A DNA stretch of 56,489 nucleotides, from positions 1 through 56,489 of IMG/VR virus record IMGVR_UViG_3300042475_003016. One strand, written 5' to 3'. This document shows positions 13,528 through 26,709 of this stretch, piece by piece (the stretch's first letter is position 1; every line of letters begins with the position of its first letter). A program made the position numbers and the translations under genes. The notes under the pieces are model-generated. The model worked only from the letters and a program-made list of their open reading frames with translations, ran no database searches and was not told where the DNA came from. This DNA is from a virus.

Positions 13528-13548
13528 TTTTTAAGTATTTAAAGGTTG

Positions 13549-13800: not shown

Positions 13801-13822
13801 AATTATTATTTTTTTTGATACA

Positions 13823-13853
13823 CAAATATAAGGGAAATAAAATTACTGCGCAA
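13823..13853 (-). promoter_or_regulatory. Bacteroidota-type promoter
   Basis: Minus strand: TTG, 20 bp, TATATTTG; the upstream box lies in the 3' end of the 168-aa gene. Serves genes 13800 to 12555. Confidence 0.65.
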
Positions 13854-14349
13854 GTTCTTTCTTCAATCTTTCCAAAACATTTTGACTTGTATGACCATCA
13901 AAAGGAAATAAGGCTGTTGATGTTTCTGGAACTTTAAATTCATTCCATCTTTCAGCAGGATAATGATTGGATATTTGACCACTTGGCAATTTTGCCACCA
14001 CAATAAACCAACCCCCACCAAAACAAGGATCACCATCATTATGTTTCCAACTCTTATGTACGCTATGCTTTGTGTTTTGGGCTACTAGGCTTGCATCCAG
14101 GAACTCTTCATCACCTTTCTGAGTTGCCCACTCATTAAACAATAGAGCGTTGTAGGTTGCCCTAAAATCATATAATTCCTTAAAGGTATGATAACCATCA
14201 GAGGTATCTTCTGTCACCCTATGATAATCCTCTTCCAATTTCTTTATGCTTTCATAAAGTTCAAATGGAATTGTATCATTTGTAATCCTAGTACCATATT
14301 TGGAATTTATATGGTCACAAAAAATATCAACTGGTGTTTTATTGCTCAT
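13843..14349 (-). CDS. conserved phage protein (WDGH-type)
   Basis: 168 aa. The block DFRATYNALLFNEWATQ ... HKSWKHNDGDPCFGGGWFIVVAKLPSG-QISNHYPAERW ... FDGHT is a long-conserved phage signature (often listed as WDGH domain). It is found in many siphophage accessory regions; biochemical role unknown. The His/Asp/Cys pattern could bind metal, which is inference. Confidence 0.75.
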   Translation of the reverse strand: MSNKTPVDIFCDHINSKYGTRITNDTIPFELYESIKKLEEDYHRVTEDTSDGYHTFKELYDFRATYNALLFNEWATQKGDEEFLDASLVAQNTKHSVHKSWKHNDGDPCFGGGWFIVVAKLPSGQISNHYPAERWNEFKVPETSTALFPFDGHTSQNVLERLKKELAQ

Positions 14350-14365
14350 TTTGTTTCTTTTTTTA

Positions 14366-15445: not shown

Positions 15446-15545
15446 TTTTATAGTTTTTTCTATCTTTTTTTGCAACTGCAACTAACATCAGTTTGGTAAA
15501 ATGACTATTGCATTAATTTATTTGTTGCGTTTCTTGTCACAATTA

Positions 15546-15857
15546 CTATTGTAAATTTAATTTATTTAAATCTTCGTCCAACCTAGTAATAAATGATTCC
15601 TCACCATCATCACCAGATACCAACCAATCAACCCTCTGGGCATACACCTGGGCTATTTTCAAATACTTTACAGCATTCTTAAATTCCTCAATGATGTGAG
15701 GGGGGTATTCATAATAACTCTGTTCATCAAACCCCCACTCATCTTTGGGTTTATTCCCCTCTGCAATTTCCAAATTATTGCTTGCAATAATTTCTTCAAT
15801 TTTATTAACAATATCATTCATACGATATTGTGCATAATCAAAATGTCCTCCACTCAT
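15546..15857 (-). CDS. conserved phage protein (SGGHFDY family)
   Basis: 103 aa, begins MSGGHFDYAQYRMNDIVNKIE, a hallmark start of a small phage family. Then EYPPHIIEEFKNAVKYLKIAQVYAQRVDWLVSGDDGEESF. Function unknown. Directly precedes tRNA-Thr on the transcript. Confidence 0.75.
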   Translation of the reverse strand: MSGGHFDYAQYRMNDIVNKIEEIIASNNLEIAEGNKPKDEWGFDEQSYYEYPPHIIEEFKNAVKYLKIAQVYAQRVDWLVSGDDGEESFITRLDEDLNKLNLQ

Positions 15858-15876
15858 ATGTTATATTTTTTGTTTG

Positions 15877-15948
15877 AGCCAATAGAGGGATTTGAACCCC
15901 CAACCCCATCTTTACAAAAGATGCGCTCTACCATTGAGCTATATTGGC
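15877..15948 (-). tRNA. tRNA-Thr(TGT)
   Basis: Acceptor GCCAATA/TATTGGC, D arm GCTC/GAGC, anticodon arm CATCT-TTTGTAA-AGATG (TGT), T loop TTCAAAT. Lies between two genes of one transcript; no CCA encoded. Confidence 0.92.
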
Positions 15949-15958
15949 CTATAATTAT

Positions 15959-16561
15959 CTAATCTAAACTATTTGGAAAGTAAAGTAAAGTTGGATTCTT
16001 ACGTTGAATATCAACTTGGGGATATGATTTTCTGAACATCTCAACATCAAATCTTTTTGTGATTAAATGATAACCATTTTTAGTTGGAATTACTGCTTCC
16101 ACCTTGCTACCAATTGGTCTAGTCCAATTGTCAAGTACAGAAATAGTCTTTGCTAATTCATTTTCATCTTTATCATCAATATCAACAATCCATCTACTCT
16201 CCATTCTTTTTACCTTACCAACAACACTCTCAAATAAGTTTTTCTGATTGTGTTGACCATTTTTAATTCTTTCAGCCAAAAGAATCATCATATCCAAAGC
16301 AACATCTTTATGGTTCTGTTTCTGAACATGAATGTAGGCTCTTGCCTTGAAAAGTTCAGATAATTGGATAATCTCCTCATATTTGCTTTCAAGATATTCC
16401 AGGCTATCAATACAATAAGTTTTGATGGTTCTGGATGATTGGTGATTATCTCTCTCATCTTCTGGTTGATCCTTCTTTCTTTTAAGGATATATAACATAT
16501 AGAAATCACCCTCTTCTGTGAAGTTCAGTAATGGTTTGATTAGGTCTAGGTTGTTTATCAT
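15959..16561 (-). CDS. archaeo-eukaryotic-primase-like protein (tentative)
   Basis: 200 aa starting at MINNLDLIKPLL; the earlier ATG at 16585 lies inside the promoter. RWIVDIDDKDE (~122-132) fits the hhhDhD metal motif of AEP-type primases and PTKNGYHLITKRFD (~160-173) fits the following S/G-x-H motif. FKARAYIHVQKQNHKDVAL lies before it. At this length it would be a minimal catalytic core. No helicase is adjacent. The family call rests on two short motifs only. Confidence 0.5.
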   Translation of the reverse strand: MINNLDLIKPLLNFTEEGDFYMLYILKRKKDQPEDERDNHQSSRTIKTYCIDSLEYLESKYEEIIQLSELFKARAYIHVQKQNHKDVALDMMILLAERIKNGQHNQKNLFESVVGKVKRMESRWIVDIDDKDENELAKTISVLDNWTRPIGSKVEAVIPTKNGYHLITKRFDVEMFRKSYPQVDIQRKNPTLLYFPNSLD

Positions 16562-16582
16562 GTTTTTGTTTTTATTATACAG

Positions 16583-16614
16583 CAAAGATAAATCAAAGTT
16601 TCCAGAATTCCAAA
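16583..16614 (-). promoter_or_regulatory. Bacteroidota-type promoter
   Basis: Minus strand: TTTG, 20 bp, TATCTTTG. Lies between tRNA-Leu-like RNA a and the primase-like gene. Confidence 0.75.
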
Positions 16615-16624
16615 TGTTTTTTTG

Positions 16625-16753
16625 TAGTCAGGACAGGACTTGAACCTATATCTCCAAATCACAGGCACCTGGAACTTTCTCCCATCAATGAGGTTGATTA
16701 CTTCTCACTCTAAAGTTACTCCTTCTTGCGTCTTCCAATTCCGCCACCTGACT
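16625..16753 (-). ncRNA. tRNA-Leu-like RNA a, rebuilt anticodon domain
   Basis: 129 nt. Acceptor AGTCAGG/CCTGACT, Leu-type D arm (TGGCGGAATTGG ... GACGC), T arm ATAGG-TTCAAGT-CCTGT, A73. Between D and T arms are ~80 nt instead of ~35, with helices AACTTT/AAAGTT and ATCAA-CCTCA-TTGAT and no standard 7-nt anticodon loop on a 5-bp stem. Confidence 0.7.
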
Positions 16754-16765
16754 ATATATTATTAT

Positions 16766-17029
16766 TTATATTTTTTCATATGTTGCTTCAAAGATATCAG
16801 GTTTACACGGATAGTATTCACCTTTAATTCCCTTGATGATATAGTCGTTTTCATTTGCAATGTGTTCACCTTCCAATGTTGGTATAATGCAAGTGCAATT
16901 ACCATCAATCCTTCGTTCTATCTTCATTGTATGGGCAGTGTTATTTGTGAACTCTTTCACTTCGTCCCAATTGCTTCTATTAAATTGGATAGATTCAATT
17001 ACTACTGGTTTTTTTCTATACTGTGCCAT
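16766..17029 (-). CDS. conserved phage protein (YRKKPVVIE family)
   Basis: 87 aa, begins MAQYRKKPVVIESIQF and ends DYIIKGIKGEYYPCKPDIFEATYEKI, both hallmarks of a small phage protein family with a beta-rich fold and no known role. Flanked by tRNA-like RNAs b and a. Confidence 0.8.
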   Translation of the reverse strand: MAQYRKKPVVIESIQFNRSNWDEVKEFTNNTAHTMKIERRIDGNCTCIIPTLEGEHIANENDYIIKGIKGEYYPCKPDIFEATYEKI

Positions 17030-17050
17030 GTTATTTGTTTTTAAAGTTAG

Positions 17051-17165
17051 TAGTCAAGACAGGATTCGAACCTGTAATAGGAGAAGCTGAGATTCAAACT
17101 CATCTTAACACTCATCTGTGACATCCCCTCGGGTTTCCCCTGCGTTACCATTCCGCCACCTGACT
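17051..17165 (-). ncRNA. tRNA-Leu-like RNA b, rebuilt anticodon domain
   Basis: 115 nt. Acceptor AGTCAGG/CTTGACT, D arm TGGCGGAATGGTAACGC, T arm ACAGG-TTCGAAT-CCTGT, A73. The central domain is closed by AGGGGA/TCTCCT directly after the D stem and contains TGAG-TTTGAAT-CTCA, a 7-nt loop that could mimic an anticodon loop (TGA) but is not joined in the normal way. Confidence 0.7.
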
Positions 17166-17171
17166 ATTTTA

Positions 17172-17295
17172 AAAATTAACTTACCAATTTTAACCCTATT
17201 CACGCTTCAGTTAAAATCCCAATTTCCATAGTGAAACATTCGTGGCAATTTTCACACCTTATTGCCTACTTCTTTTCGGCTCCTCAGTTAATTTT
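17172..17295 (-). ncRNA. candidate structured RNA 5 with H-type pseudoknot
   Basis: 124 nt between the stop of the 126-aa gene and tRNA-like RNA b. Closed by a perfect 10-bp helix AAAATTAACT/AGTTAATTTT. Inside are a perfect 8-bp hairpin ATTTTAAC/GTTAAAAT and a pseudoknot: GGCAAT/ATTGCC interleaved with GTGAAA/TTTCAC, the second strand lying directly before ATTGCC. Confidence 0.6.
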
Positions 17296-17301
17296 ATTTT
17301 T

Positions 17302-17682
17302 TTAAGAAACTAATTCATAAAGTTTTAGTGTATCTCTTTTCTCTTCTTTATTAATACCTATTAAGTATTGTTCAATATTCCTAATTATATTTTTACTATA
17401 AATAGACTTAATATTTGCTAGTTTTAAGAATTTAGAAACTAATTGTGTTTGATTAATTTTATTATTCTTAATATCACTAATTGCAGCCAAAATCTGTGAT
17501 TTATATCCAATAGAAGGATCAACTAAATTAATTTTTTGGTTTGTCAATACCCCATTCACTACTATTCTTATTTCATGGGCTTTAAGTCCTTTTATATATG
17601 TGACACAATACTCATCATATCCAAGATGGTTAAATCCAGATTCAGTTTGTTCGTATTTTGCAACTTTAAAAAGAGTTTTCAT
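17302..17682 (-). CDS. hypothetical protein
   Basis: 126 aa, not recognised. Begins MKTLFKVAKYEQTESGFNHLGYDEYCVTYIKG; the second half is helical (ILAAISDIKNNKINQTQLVSKFLK). No membrane segment. Followed at once by structured RNA 5. Confidence 0.6.
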   Translation of the reverse strand: MKTLFKVAKYEQTESGFNHLGYDEYCVTYIKGLKAHEIRIVVNGVLTNQKINLVDPSIGYKSQILAAISDIKNNKINQTQLVSKFLKLANIKSIYSKNIIRNIEQYLIGINKEEKRDTLKLYELVS

Positions 17683-17707
17683 AATTTTGTTTTAGTTGTT
17701 TAAAAAG

Positions 17708-17800
17708 CAGTCAGAAGAGGAATCGAACCTCTTTACAGGGAATTACCCGACATCCACGACCTTCCATCGGACTCGAACCGACCTTGTACCAAACCTGACT
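17708..17800 (-). ncRNA. tRNA-Leu-like RNA c with second T-arm-like hairpin
   Basis: 93 nt. Acceptor AGTCAGG/TCTGACT, T arm AGAGG-TTCGATT-CCTCT, G73. The D arm is not Leu-type. A second T-arm-like hairpin TCGG-TTCGAGT-CCGA sits near the 5' side and GGG-TAATT-CCC in the middle. It has its own promoter, with 15 nt between the -7 box and the acceptor. Confidence 0.6.
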
Positions 17801-17815
17801 ATTTAATTTCCTCTA

Positions 17816-17847
17816 CAAAGATAAGCCAAAGTTTCCAGACTTCCAAA
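17816..17847 (-). promoter_or_regulatory. Bacteroidota-type promoter of tRNA-like RNA c
   Basis: Minus strand: TTTG, 20 bp, TATCTTTG, then leader TAGAGGAAATTAAAT to the acceptor stem. Nearly identical to the promoters of RNAs e and f. Confidence 0.8.
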
Positions 17848-17871
17848 TATGTTTTAAAATCTTTTCATAGT

Positions 17872-18132
17872 TTATTTCTTTTTAAATTTTTCAAACCATT
17901 CTGTAAATGGTAAATTATTTTCTCTACCTTCAAAAAATGCTACTTCTAATTCTTCTTCATTGTACATTCTTTCTTGCATCCATTTAGCACCTTCAAATAC
18001 TCCATCTTTAAAATCAACTTTTTGAAAATTATCTAATCTCTTTAAGTATTTTTTTTCTGCTAAGTCTCCAATTTCAGCAGCCTCTTCAAGTGTTTCTTCA
18101 GTAATACACTTTTTACCAAATTCCTTTTCCAT
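17872..18132 (-). CDS. conserved small phage protein
   Basis: 86 aa, helical and charged: EFGKKCITEETLEEAAE ... FKDGVFEGAKWMQERMYNEEEL. The ending FxxGAKWMQERMYxEEE ... FxEWFEKFKK is common in Bacteroidota phage proteins. Function unknown. Confidence 0.7.
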   Translation of the reverse strand: MEKEFGKKCITEETLEEAAEIGDLAEKKYLKRLDNFQKVDFKDGVFEGAKWMQERMYNEEELEVAFFEGRENNLPFTEWFEKFKKK

Positions 18133-18210
18133 ATTAATATATTTTGTTTTTAAAGAAAGGTACGGTTAATGACAACCGCACCATAAATAATTTTACCTCG
18201 ATGAGTTAAC

Positions 18211-18354
18211 TTACATAACCATTGCACAAATAAACCACAAACAAGAAACTACAATTAGTAATATTAGTATTCTCTTGTTTTTTTCTTCTCGTAAGAAAGT
18301 ATACCCAAAGAGTAATCCCATACACATACTTAATATCCAAAATATTATGTCCAT
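18211..18354 (-). CDS. 47-aa two-span membrane protein
   Basis: MDIIFWILSMCMGLLFGYTF, a charged turn (LREEKNKR), then ILILLIVVSCLWFICAMVM. Two hydrophobic helices joined by a basic loop, a holin-like or small accessory membrane topology. No family recognised. Confidence 0.55.
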   Translation of the reverse strand: MDIIFWILSMCMGLLFGYTFLREEKNKRILILLIVVSCLWFICAMVM

Positions 18355-18395
18355 AGGTCTTGTTTTTTAAATTTTAAATTAACTATCTGATTATG

Positions 18396-18525
18396 TAGTC
18401 AAGACAGGATTCGAACCTGTGATAATCCCCATCAGCACAATGGTTAAAGCAGGGATCCCGTTGCTGTTGTGGCTCTGTCAAGCCAGTCCATTGTTTCGGA
18501 GCGTGTTCCAACTCGCCTCCTGACT
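18396..18525 (-). ncRNA. tRNA-Leu-like RNA d, rebuilt anticodon domain
   Basis: 130 nt. Acceptor AGTCAGG/CTTGACT, D arm GGCGAGTTGGAACACGC, T arm ACAGG-TTCGAAT-CCTGT, A73. The central domain has CAATGG/CCATTG enclosing TGGCT-TGACAG-AGCCA and AGCA/TGCT hairpins, so a branched domain replaces the anticodon arm. Confidence 0.7.
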
Positions 18526-18546
18526 ATGTGTAGTTAGCAACAATAA

Positions 18547-18780
18547 TTAATAAGAAGCAATATCTCCTTTATAAAATTCCATAAAATTACTAAATTGTCC
18601 GCTTTTGGATAGTTTAGTCAATCCATACCCTTCAACATATATATGACCATCCACATCTTTATCTTTAAATGGCATAATATATGTTGAATCACCTTCAACT
18701 AATTTATGGAATTTTATTCCATATTTTTTAAACGTTTCTTGTACTAATTCTAAGTTTGTTAAGTTTGTCATAGACCACAT
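18547..18780 (-). CDS. hypothetical protein
   Basis: 77 aa (or 74 if it starts at MTNLTNLEL). Middle GDSTYIMPFKDKDVDGHIYVEGYG is beta-like. No family recognised. Lies between tRNA-like RNAs e and d. Confidence 0.55.
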   Translation of the reverse strand: MWSMTNLTNLELVQETFKKYGIKFHKLVEGDSTYIMPFKDKDVDGHIYVEGYGLTKLSKSGQFSNFMEFYKGDIASY

Positions 18781-18802
18781 TCTTTATTTTTATTTTAAAA
18801 AG

Positions 18803-18879
18803 TAGTCAGGACAGGATTCGAACCTGTATCCACCCGTCATCTAACGGAGTGCCTCTGTCTCCAATTCAGCCACCTGACT
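18803..18879 (-). ncRNA. tRNA-Leu-like RNA e (shortest member)
   Basis: 77 nt. Acceptor AGTCAGG/CCTGACT, D arm with CTG-AATTGGAGA-CAG, T arm ACAGG-TTCGAAT-CCTGT, A73. In the anticodon position is CAC, bulged T, CCGT, loop TAGATG, ACGG, GTG: seven pairs and a 6-nt loop, not a 5-bp stem with 7-nt loop. Own promoter 15 nt upstream. Confidence 0.65.
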
Positions 18880-18894
18880 ATTTCATTTCCTCTA

Positions 18895-18926
18895 CAAAGA
18901 TAAACCAAAGTTTTCAGACTTCCAAA
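18895..18926 (-). promoter_or_regulatory. Bacteroidota-type promoter of tRNA-like RNA e
   Basis: Minus strand: TTTG, 20 bp, TATCTTTG, leader TAGAGGAAATGAAAT, then acceptor. Confidence 0.8.
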
Positions 18927-18932
18927 TGTGTT

Positions 18933-19319
18933 TTAAAATTTCTTCATTCCATAATTGATGGCAATGAATTTCTCATAATTTATGTCGTTCTCATCACATA
19001 TTTTTATAATTTCTCTTATTTTATGACTAACTTCTGAAACAACTTCACCTAATTTGTTTGCCTCATCAATTAAATTATCAATCTCTTCTTCTATGCTGGT
19101 AGAACCCCCTTCTTCCCAATCAATATCATATAGGATATCATCATCTAATCTGATATATAAAAAAGCATTAAATTTACCCCCATTACTTTCAATTTGAACA
19201 TAAGATAATACATCAATTGTATATAACTCAAAAAGAACAACATTTGGTTTTATTTTTTCCACAGAAAATTGGATGCCCAAATCTTTTAGATAATCACCTA
19301 CATTTTTAACAATATTCAT
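18933..19319 (-). CDS. hypothetical coiled-coil protein
   Basis: 128 aa. N-terminal half beta-like (VVLFELYTIDVLSYVQIESNG, AFLYIRLDDDILYDIDWEEGG), C-terminal half a long helix (IEEEIDNLIDEANKLGEVVSE). No family recognised. A TATTTAT motif lies 31 nt upstream. Confidence 0.6.
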   Translation of the reverse strand: MNIVKNVGDYLKDLGIQFSVEKIKPNVVLFELYTIDVLSYVQIESNGGKFNAFLYIRLDDDILYDIDWEEGGSTSIEEEIDNLIDEANKLGEVVSEVSHKIREIIKICDENDINYEKFIAINYGMKKF

Positions 19320-19350
19320 AATAATTTATTTTTTTATAACTAAAGCATAT

Positions 19351-19357
19351 ATAAATA
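19351..19357 (-). promoter_or_regulatory. candidate late promoter (TATTTAT)
   Basis: Minus-strand TATTTAT 31 nt before the ATG of the gene ending at 18933; farther than usual. Confidence 0.3.
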
Positions 19358-19378
19358 TCTATACAAATCAATAAAATT

Positions 19379-19572
19379 AACATCCTAATTTATCCAACTT
19401 ACAGATGTTATGGCTGTCCCCCTAGCCAAGGGGTTAGGAATAGTCATTTCGTCCTAACGAGGTCGGGTTGACACCCCCTGACGTTCTCCCTATACGTCAA
19501 TGTACGTGTCCATACAGTAATCACTCTGTTTCTTCATATTGGACATACTATCTGGTGATTAACCAGAACGTG
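19379..19572 (-). ncRNA. candidate structured RNA 3 with kissing loop and pseudoknot
   Basis: 194 nt, GC-rich for this genome, directly after tRNA-like RNA i. Helices: TCTGGT-TAATC-ACCAGA; GTCCA/TGGAC enclosing ACAG-AGTGATTA-CTGT, whose loop GATTA can kiss TAATC; TGACGT/ACGTCA; GTTAGGA/TCCTAAC (7 bp); CCCCT-TGGCT-AGGGG, whose loop can pair with AGCCA 3 nt later; AACATC/GATGTT. No ORF. Confidence 0.55.
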
Positions 19573-19685
19573 TAGCAAGAGTAGGATTTGAACCTACAAG
19601 CCAGGCTCAACAGCCCAGAACAGTTTTGTTTAACGTCAGCATCCTTCTGATTTCTGTTTTTGCGTGTACCATTCGCCATCTTGCC
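19573..19685 (-). ncRNA. tRNA-like RNA i, expanded anticodon loop, class II variable arm
   Basis: 113 nt. Acceptor GGCAAGA/TCTTGCT, D arm GCGAATGGTACACGC, anticodon stem AACAG/CTGTT, variable arm CTGGGCT-GTTG-AGCCTGG, T arm GTAGG-TTCAAAT-CCTAC, A73. The anticodon loop is about 30 nt instead of 7 and holds TCAG-AAGGATG-CTGA. Confidence 0.7.
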
Positions 19686-19703
19686 AATATTATTCTAATT
19701 AGT

Positions 19704-19865
19704 TCAATAATCCCAATTAGATGTATCTATTTTTTTACCACTATTCAAGCAATCAAAAACATAGTCCCATCTTTTAGTCCTAGTTATATACTCTACTAAA
19801 AAATCACTAAACCCCAAAGATATGGATCCATTTTCTTTTATCATTTTAACGTCTAATGTTTTCAT
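19704..19865 (-). CDS. 53-aa hypothetical protein
   Basis: MKTLDVKMIKENGSISLGFS ... RTKRWDYVFDCLNSGKKID. Start context A-rich as in neighbouring genes. No family recognised. Confidence 0.5.
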   Translation of the reverse strand: MKTLDVKMIKENGSISLGFSDFLVEYITRTKRWDYVFDCLNSGKKIDTSNWDY

Positions 19866-19895
19866 ACTATTTGTTTTTATTTTGTATCAACTTCA

Positions 19896-20033
19896 TTACA
19901 AGTATTTTTTAACTTCCAATTTAGATTTTTGCCTATCTGATTTGGAGAATACTCTTTTGAACTTCTGCTTTACTTTATCTCCCCAAAAATAAGCCCATTT
20001 TCCTTTTCCTGAAGAATTCATTTGTGGTTTCAT
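19896..20033 (-). CDS. 45-aa basic hypothetical protein
   Basis: MKPQMNSSGKGKWAYFWGDK then KQKFKRVFSKSDRQKSKLEVKKYL. Very basic, so a nucleic-acid-binding role is possible but unproven. Confidence 0.5.
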   Translation of the reverse strand: MKPQMNSSGKGKWAYFWGDKVKQKFKRVFSKSDRQKSKLEVKKYL

Positions 20034-20068
20034 AGTTTTATAAGTTTTGTATCAAACTAACTAAAATA

Positions 20069-20274
20069 AAATAAATAAGTCTCTTGCATGTTCACCACGC
20101 TTGTAGATTTTACTGAACATAGTTTACTGTTCACCTGTTATGAGTGCACCATAGAGCAGGGTCCATCACATACTCTCTTGGGACATTTACACTTCAATTG
20201 GGCAGCTACTCCCGTGAAGCCAAGAGTTATTTAAACGGTGCTAATCCGTTATATGTAAGAGAACTTATTTATTT
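20069..20274 (-). ncRNA. candidate structured RNA 2 with 17-bp closing helix
   Basis: 206 nt, starting 2 nt after tRNA-like RNA f and so on its transcript. Closed by 12 bp + bulged T + 5 bp (ends AAATAAATAAGT/ACTTATTTATTT and CTCTT/AAGAG). Inside: AACGG-ATTAGCA-CCGTT; CTCTTGG/CCAAGAG enclosing CTTCA/TGAAG and GGG/CCC; TGAACA/TGTTCA. No ORF or tRNA arms. The closed, branched layout is typical of a stable functional RNA. Confidence 0.65.
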
Positions 20275-20276
20275 TG

Positions 20277-20354
20277 CAGTCAGGGCAGGATTCGAACCTG
20301 ATAAGCAACCGTTTTAATGGACTCGGAACCGTTCCTCATTACGCCCACCTGACT
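20277..20354 (-). ncRNA. tRNA-Leu-like RNA f
   Basis: 78 nt. Acceptor AGTCAGG/CCTGACT (8 pairs with an extra C-G), T arm CAGG-TTCGAAT-CCTG, G73. D arm GGGCGTAATGAGG. In the anticodon position only CCG/CGG with a 12-nt loop is seen. Own promoter; structured RNA 2 follows. Confidence 0.6.
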
Positions 20355-20369
20355 GTTTCATTTCCTCTA

Positions 20370-20401
20370 CAAAGATAATCCAAAGTTTCCAGATTTCCAA
20401 G
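20370..20401 (-). promoter_or_regulatory. Bacteroidota-type promoter of tRNA-like RNA f
   Basis: Minus strand: CTTG, 20 bp, TATCTTTG, leader TAGAGGAAATGAAAC, then acceptor at the same 15-nt distance as RNAs c and e. Confidence 0.75.
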
Positions 20402-20409
20402 TACTATAC

Positions 20410-20769
20410 TTATTTTTTTTCAAAGTGAAATATAATCTCTTTTGGTATTTCCTGGATTAAACCATACTTTTTTGCAAATCTAAAATTCGCATTATACTCA
20501 TTTAATCTTTTAAGTTGCTGGCTAATTTCCTTACGAAATTGTTCCAAAGAATGTGCAGACTTCCACTTATTACAAACCCTACAACTAGGCATCAAGTTAT
20601 CAATATCATTTAGTTCCTTGTCAGTATATATAAAATTAGATTTTAAACTGAAAATTAATTTACTAACCAGATGATCCACTTGCATTTCCTTGAAAATCAT
20701 TTCACATCCACAATAAGCACAACAACCATTGTACTTGTCATATACTAATTTTCTTAACTCTGGTTTCAT
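20410..20769 (-). CDS. HNH endonuclease
   Basis: 119 aa. CAYCGCEM (~17-24), EMQVDHLVSK (~29-38) and NLMPSCRVCNKWKS (~58-71) form the HNH core with two Cys pairs for structural zinc. C-terminal helices follow. Probably a free-standing homing or DNA-processing nuclease. Confidence 0.9.
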   Translation of the reverse strand: MKPELRKLVYDKYNGCCAYCGCEMIFKEMQVDHLVSKLIFSLKSNFIYTDKELNDIDNLMPSCRVCNKWKSAHSLEQFRKEISQQLKRLNEYNANFRFAKKYGLIQEIPKEIIFHFEKK

Positions 20770-20788
20770 TTGTTTTTTTTAAAAAAAG

Positions 20789-20902
20789 TAGTCAGGGTAG
20801 GATTTGAACCTACAATTTGGTGTCAGTCATAAACTGATTGCTTATTCTGTTGTGGAGTTCTTTGCTCCACCGAACCTGCGTTTACCATTCCGCCACCTAA
20901 CT
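20789..20902 (-). ncRNA. tRNA-Leu-like RNA g, rebuilt anticodon domain
   Basis: 114 nt. Acceptor AGTTAGG/CCTGACT, D arm TGGCGGAATGGTAAACGC, T arm GTAGG-TTCAAAT-CCTAC, A73. GGTTCGGTG can pair with CACCAAATT across the centre, with inner hairpins GTGGAG-CAAAGAA-CTCCAC (alternative) and TCAGT-TTATG-ACTGA. Confidence 0.7.
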
Positions 20903-20908
20903 AATTTA

Positions 20909-21112
20909 TCAAAGTTTTTGTTGTGCAAGAAACAACCAATATTTATTTGCATCTGTAAGCACATTTGGTGTAAATGATGGTAGGTATTCCTCCAGCAAGG
21001 CAACTTTTTCCTCATTAGTTAGTCTTGAGTACCATCTTATGGCTAACTCACGGTCAGTTAGTTGCACACCTGCATTAACTTTAATGTCAATTAACTCCTT
21101 TGTGCTTTTCAT
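20909..21112 (-). CDS. hypothetical helical protein
   Basis: 67 aa: KELIDIKVNAGVQLTDRELAIRWYSRLTNEEKVALLEEYLP. Helical, no family recognised. Served by the promoter at 21143-21174 and followed by tRNA-like RNA g. Confidence 0.6.
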   Translation of the reverse strand: MKSTKELIDIKVNAGVQLTDRELAIRWYSRLTNEEKVALLEEYLPSFTPNVLTDANKYWLFLAQQKL

Positions 21113-21139
21113 ATCTTATTCTTTTAATGATTTACTATA

Positions 21140-21352
21140 TTACAAAGATAAATCAAAGTTTCCAGAATTACAAATATTTCCTTTAACTTTACCAGCAACA
21201 TTAATTGATATTAACTCCCTCAAATCTGACCTCAATACAGAACTTACTTTTGCACCAGTATATGCACCTGTATAACTAAATACTCTTAACCATGCTGGAT
21301 CAGCAATATTTTTACTCACCTTAATCAAAACTGTATTTTGAATATTTTTCAT
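21140..21352 (-). CDS. small protein, array B member 14
   Basis: 70 aa, begins MKNIQNTVLIKVSKNIADPAWLR; the D-P-A-W motif matches members 9 and 1. The last ~12 codons overlap the next promoter, so its C-terminus may be shaped by regulatory sequence. Confidence 0.5.
   Translation of the reverse strand: MKNIQNTVLIKVSKNIADPAWLRVFSYTGAYTGAKVSSVLRSDLRELISINVAGKVKGNICNSGNFDLSL
21143..21174 (-). promoter_or_regulatory. Bacteroidota-type promoter
   Basis: Minus strand: TTTG, 20 bp, TATCTTTG, embedded in the 3' end of array B member 14; serves the 67-aa gene and tRNA-like RNA g. Confidence 0.75.
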
Positions 21353-21546
21353 AATTTTATATTTTGTTGTATACTACTTAATTGTCTTGACATCTGGACG
21401 CGTACTTCATTTTTTATCTGTTTCCAGATTTCAAAATATTCTTTATACCCTAATTGGTCACATGCTTGACTATTTACCTCCCCAGAACGTAAAGAGGCTA
21501 CTTGGTCAAATAAATAATCATCTATATGTTTACCTACATTTATCAT
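21349..21546 (-). CDS. small protein, array B member 13
   Basis: 65 aa, begins MINVGKHIDDYLFDQVASLR; ends KNEVRVQMSRQLSSIQQNIKL. ATGA overlaps on both sides. Confidence 0.55.
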   Translation of the reverse strand: MINVGKHIDDYLFDQVASLRSGEVNSQACDQLGYKEYFEIWKQIKNEVRVQMSRQLSSIQQNIKL

Positions 21547-21731
21547 GACTTTATGTTTTGACCTACTTCATAAAATAATTGATTATTTATTTGACTATCT
21601 ATTTGATTCTGTACTTGTTCCAATACTTGACTTCTTACCATATCTATAACTTTATTCATTACTTGATCCCATATTGACACATTTACTTTATGAGATACTT
21701 GCCCCTCTACTTGATTTCTTACGTTCAACAT
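21543..21731 (-). CDS. small protein, array B member 12 (QV-repeat type)
   Basis: 62 aa from MLNVRNQVEGQVSHKVNV, matching the usual array start; a longer reading to 21770 runs into member 11. Nearly all four-residue x-x-Q-V units (MVRSQVLEQVQNQIDSQINN). Confidence 0.55.
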   Translation of the reverse strand: MLNVRNQVEGQVSHKVNVSIWDQVMNKVIDMVRSQVLEQVQNQIDSQINNQLFYEVGQNIKS

Positions 21732-21916
21732 AAATTTACGTTTTTTTTCATTTCCTTTGTTAAGAGCCAAACTACTTGTCTATTTATTCCATGTCCTAAT
21801 TTAGCTGAACACTTTGCCCAAACTTTACAACTTACTTTATAATACATTTCACCCCATAGTTTGTTCCGTATGTGACTACTTACATTATTGCTAATTTCAA
21901 TATCTAAATTCTTCAT
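21725..21916 (-). CDS. small protein, array B member 11
   Basis: 63 aa, begins MKNLDIEISNNVSSHIRNKLW; contains three Cys. Overlaps members on both sides. Confidence 0.55.
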   Translation of the reverse strand: MKNLDIEISNNVSSHIRNKLWGEMYYKVSCKVWAKCSAKLGHGINRQVVWLLTKEMKKNVNLC

Positions 21917-22100
21917 AATTTCTTGTTTTTTGTCTAACTTGTTCCCATACTTGACTACTAACTTGATTTTTTAATTGTCCCTCTGCATGGCTACGTACCT
22001 GGTTAACCACTTTAACACTTACTAAATCCATTATTTTGATATGCATTTTGTTGACTAAAAAATAACATATTTGTTCTTCTAACTTGTCTGCAATCCTCAT
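21897..22100 (-). CDS. small protein, array B member 10 (QV-repeat type)
   Basis: 67 aa, begins MRIADKLEEQICYFLVNKM; C-terminal half VVNQVRSHAEGQLKNQVSSQV then WEQV repeats. Confidence 0.55.
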   Translation of the reverse strand: MRIADKLEEQICYFLVNKMHIKIMDLVSVKVVNQVRSHAEGQLKNQVSSQVWEQVRQKTRNYEEFRY

Positions 22101-22104
22101 AACT

Positions 22105-22302
22105 TTACATTTTTTTTACTTGATTATGTACTTGAAGCCTTATTCGAGAATATAATTGAACATCTATCTGATTTGTTGTTTTGTCCCTTAATATGTAACC
22201 TACCTTACTAGCTACTCTTTCATTTACTTTATCCAGCAATTTAATTTTACCCCTTATTTTAGCCCATAATTCTTTGGATACTTGACTTCCTAAATTCCAC
22301 AT
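22105..22302 (-). CDS. small protein, array B member 9
   Basis: 65 aa, begins MWNLGSQVSKELWAKIRGKI; ends LYSRIRLQVHNQVKKM. Not preceded by an ATGA overlap but spaced 12-13 nt into the previous gene. Confidence 0.55.
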   Translation of the reverse strand: MWNLGSQVSKELWAKIRGKIKLLDKVNERVASKVGYILRDKTTNQIDVQLYSRIRLQVHNQVKKM

Positions 22303-22475
22303 AATTTCACGTTTTGTTTCACTTGACTAAGTACTTCATTTGATAATCTAGTATTTATTTGGTCTCTCAATTTAAAATATATTTTAATTGGTATATTACT
22401 GGCTACTACACCCCAAACTTGTCCTCTGAAATTAGTATATATTTTATCCATTACTTGTTTATCTACATTTTCCAT
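22290..22475 (-). CDS. small protein, array B member 8
   Basis: 61 aa, begins MENVDKQVMDKIYTNFRGQVW; ends LSNEVLSQVKQNVKLCGI. Confidence 0.55.
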   Translation of the reverse strand: MENVDKQVMDKIYTNFRGQVWGVVASNIPIKIYFKLRDQINTRLSNEVLSQVKQNVKLCGI

Positions 22476-22479
22476 ACTT

Positions 22480-22671
22480 TTATTTTAATTTGTTGCGTAA
22501 TGATAGAGTTAATTGCCAAGATATGTTCCATATTTGAAAATTCAAATTTTCTCCAACCCCAACCCATATTTTATCACTCAATTTGTTGTAAAACTTTTCC
22601 CCTAATTTACTATGCACACTTTCTGCTTCTTTATCAAAAATAATATTGACTTGACCACTTACATCTTTCAT
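22480..22671 (-). CDS. small protein, array B member 7
   Basis: 63 aa, begins MKDVSGQVNIIFDKEAESVH; centre KLGEKFYNKLSDKIWVGVGE resembles members 1 and 4 (SDxxWxKL/V). Confidence 0.55.
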   Translation of the reverse strand: MKDVSGQVNIIFDKEAESVHSKLGEKFYNKLSDKIWVGVGENLNFQIWNISWQLTLSLRNKLK

Positions 22672-22856
22672 ATTTCCATATTTTTTCTTATAACTAGTTT
22701 TACAGGATTTAATACTCTTTCTCTATCTTCTACTATATTAGATATTTTAATCTGTGCTTTCAGCCAAGCTGCATTACCAACTTTTGGCCATAATGGATAT
22801 ATTATTTTACTAGATAGGTGATTTGAAAACACCCCTCCCATATTTTTCATACTCAT
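22668..22856 (-). CDS. small protein, array B member 6
   Basis: 62 aa, begins MSMKNMGGVFSNHLSSKI; P-L-W-P-K-V-G-N-A-A-W core. Start could be M3. Confidence 0.5.
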   Translation of the reverse strand: MSMKNMGGVFSNHLSSKIIYPLWPKVGNAAWLKAQIKISNIVEDRERVLNPVKLVIRKNMEI

Positions 22857-23061
22857 TTTTTTCTGAATTTGGAATAATTAAATTTTCTTGAACTGGATTC
22901 ATCATTTGACTTCTAACTTGTTCAAATATGTCAGAATGCAAATGACTAGTTACATTACTTATTAAAGGGAATATAGCTACATTTCTAAATCTGTCGTATA
23001 ATGGTCTTCTTATAACCATTTGAATTGTTCTTTCTAGTTCATTCTCCTTCCGTATCATCAT
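22810..23061 (-). CDS. small protein, array B member 5
   Basis: 83 aa, longest of the array; a later start (MVIRRPLYDRF) is possible. HSDIFEQVRSQMMNPVQENLI is nearly the same as in members 2 and 4, showing recent duplication. Overlaps member 6 by 47 nt. Confidence 0.5.
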   Translation of the reverse strand: MMIRKENELERTIQMVIRRPLYDRFRNVAIFPLISNVTSHLHSDIFEQVRSQMMNPVQENLIIPNSEKNEYEKYGRGVFKSPI

Positions 23062-23269
23062 AATAATTTTTCTCTGGATACAAAATAATTAAATTTTCTT
23101 GAATTGGCAACATTAATTGATTCCTCACTTGCTCAAAAACATCATAATACAAATGATTTGCTACATTATGTTTTGAATTATAATGAAGCCTATTACTTAA
23201 TTCATCATATAATATTTTTCTAACCCGGGTTGGGATTACTTTTTCCACTCTATACATTACATTTATCAT
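23039..23269 (-). CDS. small protein, array B member 4
   Basis: 76 aa, begins MINVMYRVEKVIPTRVRKIL; YYDVFEQVRNQLMLPIQENLI repeats the module of members 5 and 2. Confidence 0.55.
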   Translation of the reverse strand: MINVMYRVEKVIPTRVRKILYDELSNRLHYNSKHNVANHLYYDVFEQVRNQLMLPIQENLIILYPEKNYYDDTEGE

Positions 23270-23271
23270 GT

Positions 23272-23481
23272 TTATTTTTTATAATCCCCTAATTTAATAC
23301 TTTGCATACCTACCATCACTGCTTCTTGTCCTTGGTTATCAGATAGTGGTATCCAAATTCTATCAGCAAGTTTGAACCATAATGAATCTGAAATTCCATT
23401 ATTGACTTTAACCCCCATTGTACTTTTGACTTTAATGTGAAATTGGTTATATAATTCATCACCAATATTTTTCATAGTCAT
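23272..23481 (-). CDS. small protein, array B member 3
   Basis: 69 aa, begins MTMKNIGDELYNQFHIKVKS; duplicates member 1 along most of its length (VxNxISDxxWxKxxxRIWxPxS ... NQGQ). Confidence 0.55.
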   Translation of the reverse strand: MTMKNIGDELYNQFHIKVKSTMGVKVNNGISDSLWFKLADRIWIPLSDNQGQEAVMVGMQSIKLGDYKK

Positions 23482-23684
23482 TTTTCTTCTGGATTTGGAA
23501 TAATTAAATTTAGTTGCATTGATTCCATTAATTGATGTCTAACTTGTTCAAGAATGTCACGATGCAAATCACCAGTAATACCACTTTTTGGATTATACGC
23601 AAATATAAACCTGATATCACTATTTAATAGTTTTCTTACCCTCGTTGAAATTACGTTATCCACTCTATCCATTATATTTATCAT
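23478..23684 (-). CDS. small protein, array B member 2
   Basis: 68 aa, begins MINIMDRVDNVISTRVRKLL; HRDILEQVRHQLMESMQLNLI. Paralogue of members 4 and 5; the pair 1-2 looks like a duplicate of the pair 3-4. Confidence 0.55.
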   Translation of the reverse strand: MINIMDRVDNVISTRVRKLLNSDIRFIFAYNPKSGITGDLHRDILEQVRHQLMESMQLNLIIPNPEEK

Positions 23685-23878
23685 ACTTTAAGATTGTATT
23701 CAACTCCAATTAATGCGTGTTGACCCTGGTTATTTAATTTCACAGATATTGGTCTCCAAATTCTTATTGAAACTTTATGCCAAACTGGATCTGAAATTTT
23801 AGAATGAACTTTGCCACCCAATACACTTTTGGCTCTAATGTGAAATTGATTGCATAATTCAGAACCAATATTTTCCAT
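23681..23878 (-). CDS. small protein, array B member 1
   Basis: 65 aa, begins MENIGSELCNQFHIRAKSVLG; SDPVWHKVSIRIWRPISVKL. First gene of the 14-gene array, following tRNA-like RNA h on the same strand. Confidence 0.55.
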   Translation of the reverse strand: MENIGSELCNQFHIRAKSVLGGKVHSKISDPVWHKVSIRIWRPISVKLNNQGQHALIGVEYNLKV

Positions 23879-23893
23879 ATATTTTAATTTTAG

Positions 23894-24019
23894 TGGTCAG
23901 GACAGGATTCGAACCTGCATACACTTCGGAGACTATCCGCTGGATGATCTGTAATGAGGTAAAGTGTATTCATATCCAGTACATACCCCATTAGCGTCTA
24001 CCAATTCCGCCACCTGACC
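23894..24019 (-). ncRNA. tRNA-Leu-like RNA h with pseudoknotted centre
   Basis: 126 nt. Acceptor GGTCAGG/CCTGACC, textbook Leu D arm TGGCGGAATTGGTAGACGC, T arm GCAGG-TTCGAAT-CCTGT, A73. After the D stem, TAATGGGGTA pairs with TACCTCATTA (10 bp, one G-T), and ATACACTT, directly before the latter strand, pairs with AAGTGTAT beside the T stem (8 bp perfect), giving an H-type pseudoknot. A further CTGGAT/ATCCAG match links the loops. No anticodon loop. Confidence 0.75.
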
Positions 24020-24024
24020 GTTCC

Positions 24025-24321
24025 TTATTTTAATAATTCAGTTAATTCTTGTTTACCTAATATAGTATGATTTCGTGCCATTCCACCTATATGGAATAAA
24101 ATATCTTCATCAACCTCAATTGGTCTATATTCTTTCCAAGTATATAAGGTAACTACATCACCCTCCTCAGTCTCCAAATCCCAACTATAATTAACTTTAT
24201 CCTCCCCAGAATTATCCACATAATCAGGTTCACCTAACACTTTTGTTAATTTATCAACTGTTGATTCAATAGTCACACCATGAAATGACGTACCATTAGA
24301 TGATTTGTTTGTTTTTTTCAT
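24025..24321 (-). CDS. conserved phage protein (NGTSFHGVTI family)
   Basis: 98 aa. NGTSFHGVTIESTVDKLTKVLGEPDY ... EDKVNYSWDLETEEGDVVTLYTWKEYRPI ... FHIGG is a well-conserved phage small-protein pattern; function unknown. Followed directly by tRNA-like RNA h. Confidence 0.75.
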   Translation of the reverse strand: MKKTNKSSNGTSFHGVTIESTVDKLTKVLGEPDYVDNSGEDKVNYSWDLETEEGDVVTLYTWKEYRPIEVDEDILFHIGGMARNHTILGKQELTELLK

Positions 24322-24359
24322 TTGCCTTATTATTTTAATAAATTATATGTGATTAAATA

Positions 24360-24506
24360 TGTACGTTTTTGTAATACCCCCAGAACGTACAAACTGTGCC
24401 AACCTACGATTTGGAGAGCGTCCAAGCCAATATACAAACATAAATTAATATGTGTCGCATATCTGTCATCTCTATCTTCGATCCTTACCCAGCGCTAGGC
24501 AGAGGG
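24360..24506 (-). ncRNA. candidate structured RNA 4
   Basis: About 150 nt without an ORF between the 36-aa gene and the 98-aa gene. Minus-strand helices: GTACGTT/AACGTAC (7 bp) or, overlapping it, TTTGTA/TACAAA with CGTT/AACG as a pseudoknot; TTGGA-CGCTC-TCCAA; ACATA-TTAATT-TATGT. GC-richer than its surroundings. Confidence 0.4.
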
Positions 24507-24617
24507 CTAATTTTTATCTATGATTTTCTTAACTTGGTTAAAGGCAAAACTTCTACCAAGTTCAAAACCTAATCTAAATATAAGAAATAATAACCATAAT
24601 ACCAAAATTGTATCCAT
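24507..24617 (-). CDS. 36-aa single-span membrane protein
   Basis: MDTILVLWLLFLIFRLGFEL, then GRSFAFNQVKKIIDKN. One hydrophobic helix with a basic C-terminal tail. No family recognised. Confidence 0.5.
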   Translation of the reverse strand: MDTILVLWLLFLIFRLGFELGRSFAFNQVKKIIDKN

Positions 24618-24621
24618 AATA

Positions 24622-24834
24622 TTAATTTTTTTTAAGATGTGGATTATCCCCACAAAGAGGCTTACCATTCATAGACATCATACTAGTGTGAGTTATTTTA
24701 CAATAATCACATTGGTAATAACCTACTGCAAATTCAACCCACTTATGTGAATTGTATTTTAGCAAGTCCCAATATTCTTTTTCTTCTTCCTCCTTTGTTA
24801 ACATACGCTGGGGTCTGGGTAAATATATGTGCAT
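24622..24834 (-). CDS. hypothetical protein with cysteine pairs
   Basis: 70 aa from MHIYLPRPQRMLTKEEEEKE; upstream in-frame codons overlap another gene. C-terminal CDYCKITHTSMMSMNGKPLCG could be a small zinc site. Function unknown. Confidence 0.55.
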   Translation of the reverse strand: MHIYLPRPQRMLTKEEEEKEYWDLLKYNSHKWVEFAVGYYQCDYCKITHTSMMSMNGKPLCGDNPHLKKN

Positions 24835-24838
24835 AGTT

Positions 24839-25033
24839 TTATTTTTTTTCAATTTCATTTGCTGATGATTCAGCACAATCTTCAAATCCCTCCATATACA
24901 ATTCTTGTAATTCAGAAAAATGGATTGCTTTGGCATCTCTGTAAAATTGTTCAATTATTGGATGGTTCACAGGGGGTATGTAATTTAAAACATTACGATA
25001 AAAATATTCTAATGACTTTTCTATATTTTTCAT
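24839..25033 (-). CDS. conserved small phage protein
   Basis: 64 aa from MKNIEKSLEYFYRNVLNYIPP; the longer reading enters tRNA-like RNA j and is rejected. HFSELQELYMEGFEDCAESS is helical. Function unknown. Confidence 0.6.
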   Translation of the reverse strand: MKNIEKSLEYFYRNVLNYIPPVNHPIIEQFYRDAKAIHFSELQELYMEGFEDCAESSANEIEKK

Positions 25034-25053
25034 TTGTTTTAATTTTTTAAGTG

Positions 25054-25198
25054 TAGCCAGGAAAGGATTCGAACCAATACGAATGAAGCGTAACCTATTT
25101 TTCATTCTAACTTTATAACGATAGCGTCTACCAAGTCATAACAAGAGTTGGGCACGTTAATAATCCAACTCGCATTATGAGCATTCCGCCACCTGGCT
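25054..25198 (-). ncRNA. tRNA-Leu-like RNA j with D-loop insertion
   Basis: 145 nt. Acceptor AGCCAGG/CCTGGCT and A73. The Leu D arm is split: GCGGAAT, then about 50 nt, then TGGTAGACGC. The insert folds as TCATAA/TTATGA, an internal loop, and GAGTTGG/CCAACTC. Centre GAATGA/TCATTC. T loop TTCGAAT is present but the T stem is weak. Confidence 0.65.
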
Positions 25199-25210
25199 AT
25201 TTTATTTACT

Positions 25211-25390
25211 TTAATTATATGTGGTAGACACCACTTCCACACTCCAACCCTCTTTTATCACACCATCAGATTCTAACTCAATTTCAAGATATTGAATTAT
25301 ACCATTTTCAATTAATTCAGCTGTGTTGTCGCCATGTCCTTTATAACAACCCTCATCATCAAATTTGATTTTCAATACTAACTCTTTCAT
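25211..25390 (-). CDS. 59-aa hypothetical protein
   Basis: MKELVLKIKFDDEGCYKGHG ... IQYLEIELESDGVIKEGWSVE. Beta-rich by eye. ATGA overlap with the upstream 105-aa gene, so translationally coupled. Confidence 0.55.
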   Translation of the reverse strand: MKELVLKIKFDDEGCYKGHGDNTAELIENGIIQYLEIELESDGVIKEGWSVEVVSTTYN

Positions 25391-25704
25391 ATTGTTTGTT
25401 TTAATCTAATCTCTTCAAGCATTTCCCATAAACTTTTTAAGTCATAGCAAATGGGTTTTCCATCAGCATCAAATGCACCATAACCACCATCGTATTTTCT
25501 TTCACCAAAATCACTTTCGTGGCAGAACCAAGTGAACCAGTCATATCCCTCCTCACCATATATTTCTTTGAATAATTTAGTGATTAAGTTGTGATATTCA
25601 TCAGAATAATCAATTAAATCAATCCCCAACTTATAAAGTTTTTCTGACCTGATGAGGGTATTTCTATATAAAGAAATGAATTCTTCAAAATCTTTTAACA
25701 ACAT
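25387..25704 (-). CDS. conserved hypothetical phage protein
   Basis: 105 aa. GEEGYDWFTWFCHESDFGERKYDGGYGAFDADGKPICYDLKSLWEMLEEI; related to the 86-aa protein at 4591-4851. Type seen in many Bacteroidota phages; function unknown. Confidence 0.65.
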   Translation of the reverse strand: MLLKDFEEFISLYRNTLIRSEKLYKLGIDLIDYSDEYHNLITKLFKEIYGEEGYDWFTWFCHESDFGERKYDGGYGAFDADGKPICYDLKSLWEMLEEIRLKQTI

Positions 25705-25733
25705 AGTTTTTTTTTTAGGTTAATCAATATATA

Positions 25734-26216
25734 CTAAACAGCGAATGGTAGATTTGTGTTCAAAATATTATGACCTTCTTTCTTAACTCTTGAACAAAAG
25801 TCTTTTAACATTTTAACACCAGATTCGGTTTTTAACACATCTACCATTGAAATTCTTTTGCCATTTGAGGTGAATGTCTGGATAGAATATCTACTTGTAT
25901 CACCAAAAACAATCCCCTTCTTTTCATCTTTCTTTATTGTCTTGGCAGTTAGCCAATTTTGGAATAAATCATCAACAACATACTCCAACTTATCACCATA
26001 TGCCTCAATACCCAATCCATTACAATACTCTCTCATCTGTGCAAATGCCTCTTTTTTTGTAGCATCCCAAAGATTACAATCAGTTGGACCCCCACTACCA
26101 CGATTGACACAGTAGCCAATTTTTTTGTTATCAAAGAATATGTCAGCAGTAAAAGCATTAGTTTCCTCTGAAAAAGAAGCAGAATACTTGATGTTTTTTA
26201 ACTTAATTCTTTCCAT
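25734..26216 (-). CDS. conserved phage protein
   Basis: 160 aa from MERIKLKNIKYSASFSEETN; the upstream in-frame ATG lies in the promoter. Pattern KLKNxKxSxSxSEETNxFxAxIFxDNKKIGYxxNxGxGGPTDCN is common to phage proteins of unknown role. Confidence 0.7.
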   Translation of the reverse strand: MERIKLKNIKYSASFSEETNAFTADIFFDNKKIGYCVNRGSGGPTDCNLWDATKKEAFAQMREYCNGLGIEAYGDKLEYVVDDLFQNWLTAKTIKKDEKKGIVFGDTSRYSIQTFTSNGKRISMVDVLKTESGVKMLKDFCSRVKKEGHNILNTNLPFAV

Positions 26217-26244
26217 AGTTGTTTGTTTTGGTTTGATTGCATCA

Positions 26245-26276
26245 CAAAGATAATAAGAAGAAATCAAATAACCAAA
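26245..26276 (-). promoter_or_regulatory. Bacteroidota-type promoter
   Basis: Minus strand: TTTG, 20 bp, TATCTTTG, just upstream of the 160-aa gene. Confidence 0.75.
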
Positions 26277-26283
26277 CTATTTT

Positions 26284-26709
26284 TCAATTATTATCAAATT
26301 TATCCCCCCAAATATTTTTATCTTTATCTCTTTTTAAATTTCTTTTATATTTTAAAACCTGATTAGGATTGACAAATAAAAAACCTTTATATTCAAAAGT
26401 ATGGTTATCAATCAAATCATCAATATCAAATCCAGGCCAATTATCAAAAAATTCAATGTCATCTGTTCTATATTCACCTTTACTTCTAAATGGCCATTTT
26501 GAAGGTCTAATGATAACATCCAAATCATTTACTGACTCAATCACACCTAATACCATAAGTGGTGCTGAACCAAAAATTGCATAATCCCCATCTGGGAGGT
26601 CATATTCAGATAATAACCCCAAAAGTTCATCTAGTGTTTTTTCTTGGCTCTCTTTTAAAAGTATATACTCATTTATATTTCTTTTAATAAGTTTATTCAA
26701 ATATTTCAT
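26284..26709 (-). CDS. nucleotidyltransferase-fold protein with capsid-targeting-like leader
   Basis: 141 aa. GSAPLMVLGVIESVNDLDVII (~47-67) has the G-S ... D-x-D signature of the minimal nucleotidyltransferase fold, with D62 and D64 as likely metal ligands. The start MKYLNKLIKRNINEYILLKE ends in I-N-E and L-K-E, like the other capsid-targeting leaders here, so it may be packaged and injected. A TATTTAT motif lies 10 nt upstream. Substrate unknown. Confidence 0.7.
   Translation of the reverse strand: MKYLNKLIKRNINEYILLKESQEKTLDELLGLLSEYDLPDGDYAIFGSAPLMVLGVIESVNDLDVIIRPSKWPFRSKGEYRTDDIEFFDNWPGFDIDDLIDNHTFEYKGFLFVNPNQVLKYKRNLKRDKDKNIWGDKFDNN

Follow-up and report, generated by a model that had tools for sequence, protein, structure and literature searches.

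An H-type pseudoknot replaces the anticodon arm of a phage tRNA-like RNA

In tmRNA, tRNA-like ends are combined with pseudoknots and a tag reading frame in a molecule of about 350 nt that carries a G3-U70 pair. tRNA mimicry is also found in the tRNA-like structures of plant viruses, in which a pseudoknot lies in the acceptor arm, and in the tRNA modules of bacterial Y RNAs, in which the acceptor is replaced. Phage T4 encodes the stable RNAs C and D, which are not tRNAs, among its tRNA genes. The pseudo-tRNA of Bacillus cereus known as tRNA-Other is a tRNA-like RNA active outside translation (PMC3399842). For Escherichia coli, a review places leucine identity in A73, A15-U48, G18G19 and A20a, finds the anticodon irrelevant to that identity, and reports that tRNA-Leu variants without the anticodon and variable arms stay active (PMC9976931).

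The element described here, tRNA-like RNA h, is encoded on the minus strand at positions 24019-23894 (126 nt) of a 56.5-kb phage record, IMGVR_UViG_3300042475_003016, the whole 56,489-nt stretch of which is referred to as the window. Like class II tRNA-Leu and its minimal variants, it possesses A14, A15, G18G19, A20a, U48, A73, a 7-bp acceptor stem and a T arm. The minimal variants were engineered, whereas the element is natural and phage-encoded, and carries a pseudoknotted domain of ~75 nt with no anticodon arm. It shares with tmRNA the tRNA-like ends, the placement of pseudoknots where the anticodon arm belongs and the non-decoding character, but it has no tag reading frame and no G3-U70, retains a normal D stem, and measures 126 nt rather than ~350. 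With respect to the plant-virus structures and Y RNA modules the arrangement is reversed: the element has an ordinary acceptor, and the exchange affects its anticodon side. The T4 stable RNAs C and D are comparable by description alone, as non-tRNA RNAs among phage tRNA genes. tRNA-Other differs from the element in having a Trp anticodon, in being chromosomal and, apparently, in having no pseudoknot domain (PMC3399842).

An earlier note on this DNA, made from the sequence alone, had held that such a fold in the position of an anticodon arm is not a known tRNA form. The literature searched (titles and abstract openings, with most subscription journals outside the search) contains no description of such RNAs, in agreement with that statement, but tmRNA represents a related body plan. 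We regard the element as a novel form of tRNA mimicry that has a real chance of being a class of its own. Together with its relatives, it belongs to a widespread and apparently undescribed family of phage RNAs that are tRNA-like but unable to decode.

Architecture of the element

Read from 5′ to 3′, the element consists of the acceptor strand GGTCAGG, T8 and G9, a leucine-type D arm, a 75-nt insert, a T arm, the acceptor strand CCTGACC and A73, all on the minus strand. The 5′ acceptor strand (24013-24019) pairs at 7/7 positions with the 3′ strand (23895-23901), the third pair being T-A. The class II D arm (GCGGAATTGGTAGACGC, 23994-24010) contains the leucine-type nucleotides listed above, the T arm reads GCAGG TTCGAAT CCTGT (23902-23918), and the discriminator A73 lies at 23894, with CCA not encoded. 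The element fills the gap between two open reading frames of the same strand (24321-24025 and 23878-23687): the upstream one, of 98 aa, has its stop codon 5 nt before the element, and the downstream one, of 64 aa, has its start codon (23878) 15 nt past it.

The 5-bp stem and 7-nt loop that would constitute an anticodon arm after position 26 are absent, and a helix with a 22-nt loop, S1, is found there. The 5′ strand of S1 (UAAUGGGGUA, 23993-23984) is followed by loop L1 (23970-23983), the 5′ strand of a second helix, S2 (AUACACUU, 23969-23962), the 3′ strand of S1 (UACCUCAUUA, 23961-23952), loop L3 (23927-23951), which contains a possible CGGA/UCCG hairpin, and the 3′ strand of S2 (AAGUGUAU, 23926-23919), whose final nucleotide is position 48 (U48). 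The earlier note had proposed two interleaved helices of 10 and 8 bp, with no gap between them and with the second abutting the T stem, and the sequence bears this out: S1 has 10 bp including one G.U and S2 has 8 bp, both located as described, the 5′ strand of S2 touches the 3′ strand of S1, and the 3′ strand of S2 ends at 23919 where the T stem begins at 23918. As the note suggested, the two helices may stack coaxially. A third proposed match of 6 bp between the loops, CUGGAU (23979-23974, in L1) with AUCCAG (23945-23940, in L3), is indeed present, but it does not rise above chance (p 0.26).

Pseudoknot-aware folding, which the earlier note had named as a check, supports this arrangement. The most favorable H-type pseudoknot in the 75-nt insert has an energy of -25.6, a value that few of 1000 dinucleotide shuffles of the insert equaled: 3/1000 when the gap was 0, 1/1000 when it was at most 1, and 6/1000 with any gap. 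Within this single sequence, S1 alone is unremarkable when conditioned on S2 (p 0.17). A nested, pseudoknot-free fold of the whole element does not stand out (z -1.45), and it disrupts the D arm. Taken with the recurrence of the same layout in many phage RNAs of other sequence (see below), these chance tests sustain the proposal that an H-type pseudoknot replaces the anticodon arm, and the structure of the element as a tRNA-like RNA of this kind is well supported.

The Rfam tRNA model RF00005 scores 37.7 bits (cut-off 29) on 23894-24019 under permissive filters. Under default filters the same model does not report the element, and ARAGORN does not call it as a tRNA. Programs that search for tRNAs depend on the anticodon arm and so leave such RNAs unannotated, even though at least 119 stretches emerged from a single scan of phage contigs.

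Relatives in other phages

The pattern used for that scan of IMG/VR required a leucine-type D arm and, 57-87 nt beyond it, a T arm. Acceptor stems with at least 5/7 pairs accompany 106 of the 120 pattern matches listed, most of them pairing at 7/7 positions. In a specificity check on 40 records chosen for holding loci, the pattern matched 38, and the pattern read backwards matched 0. Further scans contributed 33 stretches, some already in the set, and nine in bacterial genomes, among which L160 (a pair of tRNAs) and L165 (a run of N) were discounted; here and below, L with a number labels a locus holding relatives. Frames without a readable D stem and inserts outside 50-95 nt were dropped, and 138 inserts yielded 102 nonredundant members. 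The IMG/VR pattern scans gave more than 100 nonredundant relatives with the same frame.

L061 has exactly the same element as BS-TP2, an isolated Bacteroides phage that infects Bacteroides salyersiae BG8. In BS-TP2 it lies within PQ571275 19519-19679, in a gap that carries no annotation and is bordered by a DUF2303 gene and ninG. Among 397 Flavobacteriaceae genomes there were two matches, one in the genome at the center of the set and the other formed by two adjacent ordinary tRNAs, and with one credible match the frame is effectively a viral feature. A Blast search of a phage collection with the elements of L028, L063, L136 and window 16620-16760 gave no match. Two annotated phage RNAs of ~78 nt, tRNA-OTHER of Escherichia phage Antha and tRNA-Undet of Tenacibaculum phage pT24, were considered and set aside as being of another type. 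No neighboring gene is conserved, the commonest protein family occurring near 7 loci only. The Flavobacterium phages immuto have relatives of the gene upstream of the element, and the tRNA-like frame is absent from the 40-kb stretch examined there. A homologue of the upstream open reading frame (52% identity) also occurs in L128 (6001-6607); the tRNA-like RNA that comes after it there is another one, and its D arm is of class I.

The distribution of these RNAs across phages is cassette-like. In seven pairings (L052/window, L063/L121, L030/L055, L030/L117, L022/L102, L056/L079 and L028/L046), the main similarity does not extend past the element and a few adjoining bases (97-139 bases), and the flanks are unrelated. 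When a 20-base loop sequence served as the query, 13 stretches were recovered; every one of them has the frame, several have different downstream flanks, and one long insert is identical across several different flanks. Near-identical elements in unrelated surroundings indicate that these are discrete RNA genes.

For the insert of the element itself no close homologue turned up in the collection searched: one targeted scan gave only L014/L061-type loci and two others gave none, and its best match, L014, is marginal (score 28, against a shuffle maximum of 27). Nonetheless, the family as a whole displays a recurrent pairing next to the T stem. The 6-mer that ends 2 nt before the T stem finds its complement within its own insert in 34/102 members, whereas 4.4 are expected (z 14.6) when the same 6-mers are tested on the inserts of other members, a control that preserves composition and position. 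A helix crossing S2 is modestly enriched, both relative to shuffles (Fisher p 6e-4, n 46) and relative to segments from other members (Fisher p 0.013, n 39). When members are taken singly, the full pseudoknot model reaches p 0.05 in 20/80 and p 0.01 in 12/80. Among 66 members with a strong S2, many display the order S1a, S2a, S1b, S2b and then the T stem, with optional hairpins. The element likewise has a helix no more than 2 nt from the T stem and, closer to the D arm, a second helix that crosses it; together with the frame, these features define the family. A nested fold fits some members, such as L010 and, by eye, L167, and the pseudoknot is thus a common rather than a universal form.

Compensatory changes come from the relatives and not from the insert of the element. 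Between L063 and L121 there are double changes in two S2 pairs, with 24/24 cells paired. The group of L030, L055 and L117 has one double change in S2 and one in S1, as well as in a further helix, with 98.3% of cells paired, and in the comparison of L056 with L079 one S2 pair is changed on both sides and one pair of S1 is broken. Column-shuffle controls reached the observed values in 135, 24 and 245 of 500 cases, and because such controls are weak with groups of two or three sequences, these counts support covariation without proving it. Sliding the partners by 1-3 columns left 20-55% of cells paired and zero double changes. In L061, L071 and L014, S1 (GAGUA/UACUC) is invariant and S2 is wholly replaced yet still pairs, a comparison made by eye because MAFFT fails to align S2 there. 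One-sided changes preserve G.U in the tRNA sense, which fits transcription from that strand.

Leucine identity and alternative readings

The element carries the leucine determinants described for E. coli, and the family shares part of this signature. U48 is present in 100/102 members and A73 in 80/102; since the leucine-type D arm was imposed by the search pattern, only these two positions constitute independent evidence, and U48 is also needed for folding. Both occur together in 28/31 ordinary tRNA-Leu of the same loci, in 1/14 tRNA-Ser and in 34/136 other tRNAs. In a count made without the D-arm condition, 121/163 long frames have a leucine-type D arm (the loci having been fetched mostly via the leucine-type D-arm pattern), with U48 in 121/121 and A73 in 96/121 of these. 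The 22/102 members that lack A73 would be poor LeuRS substrates. CCA is encoded in 5/102 members only. With the determinants for LeuRS kept and the anticodon arm gone, the family appears to have retained the needs of LeuRS and lost those of the ribosome.

Starting from the observed frame, the missing anticodon arm and the pseudoknot layout, we infer a course of processing, CCA addition, charging and action on a target. The element may encode a small phage RNA that descends from a leucine tRNA, in which the acceptor stem, D arm, T arm and tertiary core would have been retained and the anticodon and variable arms replaced by an H-type pseudoknot domain of ~75 nt, with S2 placed next to the T stem, where the class II variable arm would end. 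Host tRNA-maturation enzymes would cut the RNA from a polycistronic transcript, as suggested by its tight spacing from the genes on either side. CCA would then be added and the L-shaped body would fold. Charging with leucine is predicted to be possible, the anticodon being dispensable for leucyl-tRNA synthetase. The RNA would be unable to decode and would work somewhere other than at the codon, in all likelihood by mimicking tRNA or serving as a decoy toward a host enzyme that binds or cuts tRNA. The pseudoknot, which evolves fast, would be what distinguishes the RNA of one phage from that of another. That the element is such a processed, probably leucine-chargeable and non-decoding tRNA mimic, with the pseudoknot as its divergent effector or decoy domain, has in our estimation an even chance of being correct.

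The strongest rival to a leucylated mimic is that the tRNA body is a mere carrier, providing 5′ and 3′ processing and stability for an unrelated effector RNA, such as a small regulatory or protein-binding RNA, that occupies the anticodon position, much as in the engineered tRNA scaffold, and that the leucine determinants persist as nucleotides that hold the core together. The extreme diversity of the inserts (118 clusters among 153) and the tolerance of members without A73 fit this possibility, as does L052, where an insert near-identical to that of window 16625-16753 lies under an acceptor stem that is completely different yet paired. Against it, the levels of A73 and U48 are closer to those of tRNA-Leu than to those of other tRNAs, and throughout the family the spacing between the T stem and the pairing end of the insert is fixed, which ties the insert to the frame. 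The carrier role is a serious possibility, if a minority one.

The remaining alternatives fare considerably worse. Decaying tRNA-Leu pseudogenes with random, functionless insertions might be expected from the lost anticodon and from the failure of ARAGORN and default-filter Rfam to find the element, but the acceptor stems remain paired in most of the pattern matches listed, relatives show compensatory changes, one long insert is unchanged in several different flanks, and there are about ten paralogues in the window and at least seven frames in L064; decay is accordingly unlikely. A tRNA-Leu with a small intron, removed by self-splicing or by cutting and ligation, would explain an insert at the anticodon position and would give the two RNA ligase genes of the window a role, but an anticodon arm in the canonical place is seen in 2/102 members against 0.9 expected, Rfam found no group I intron at the element, and ~75 nt is too short for one, which makes an intron very improbable. 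A pared-down tmRNA relative that combines a pseudoknot with a coding tag would have the same body plan of tRNA-like ends and pseudoknots in the anticodon-arm place, yet ARAGORN calls none, G3-U70 is absent, the D stem is intact and the length is only 126 nt, and this idea is more doubtful still. HDV-like ribozymes, whose theta members occur near phage tRNAs, have the same strand order (P1a, P2a, P1b, P2b) and a G after the cleavage site, but S1 starts with U, cleavage there would sever the tRNA body, and no ribozyme family appears up to E 5 in 11200-26500, so that a self-cleaving element is scarcely credible.

Returning to the leucylated mimic, a wider form of it can be offered as a tentative and rather speculative conjecture. 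These RNAs could form a large, undescribed phage class of leucine-charged, anticodon-less tRNAs with fast-evolving pseudoknots, multicopy in some genomes and exchanged as cassettes, in which host maturation and leucyl-tRNA synthetase would make a non-decoding aminoacyl-RNA that neutralizes tRNA-targeting defenses or donates leucine off the ribosome. If the RNAs are processed and charged, phages would produce aminoacyl-RNAs that are unable to decode, and there would be a concrete molecule with which to ask about roles of phage tRNA arrays outside translation. As a compact, naturally occurring structure, the pseudoknot-in-tRNA fold could find use as an RNA scaffold as well.

Further RNAs and genes around the element

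The window contains about ten tRNA-like frames between 16.6 and 25.2 kb, seven of them located by a frame finder and the others by reading the sequence. The paralogues of the element, all on the minus strand, include those at 16625-16753 (whose insert recurs in L052), at 17051-17165 and 19573-19685 (frame finder), at 17708-17800, which has an internal T-arm-like hairpin and a relative in L174, at 18396-18525, with a pseudoknot-compatible insert, and at 20789-20902, which scores 44.5 bits with the Rfam tRNA model. Two are short, namely 18802-18879, a frame-finder paralogue that ARAGORN also calls, as tRNA-???, and 20277-20354, which was read from the sequence. Another read in the same way, 25054-25198, has an extra hairpin in the D loop. 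It exemplifies a second kind of insertion, in which hairpins or stretches of tens of bases lie in the D arm of tRNA-like frames (window 25198-25054, minus strand; L109 from 843; L075 from 6152; L064 from 11360).

Comparable clusters exist elsewhere. L064 (7183-12206) holds at least seven tRNA-like frames with different inserts in ~5 kb of one phage contig. In L159, a contig of a Trichormus MAG, tandem frames at 1304-1412, 3106-3228, 3297-3430 and 3458-3581 (minus strand) have a common insert motif around CTTGCC..AAAGGC..GA.GAATGAGGGTTATCG.

Several other sequences lie in or next to the tRNA-like cluster of the window. Directly after the last base of a tRNA-like RNA, in window 19572-19380 (minus strand) and in L048, L174 and L177, is a conserved stretch that begins CACG..GGTTNATNACC..ATAGTATGTCCAATA, which is probably, in these four places, another structured RNA. 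A freshwater-1 RNA (RF02979, 73.1 bits) resides at 20108-20170 (minus strand), within the cluster. Two RNA ligase genes are found on the minus strand at 38765-39934 (phrog_968) and 41170-42234 (phrog_562), and could be relevant to tRNA repair. Upstream of 17800, 18879 and 20354 (minus strand), before three of the tRNA-like RNAs, is a near-identical leader, TTGGAA..CTG.AAACTTTGG.TTATCTTTGTAGAGGAAAT, which we take to resemble the Bacteroidota promoter consensus. As a feature of the family such a promoter was rejected, the signal being weak, with a Bacteroidota-type promoter upstream of only 5/102 members, downstream of one and antisense to one.
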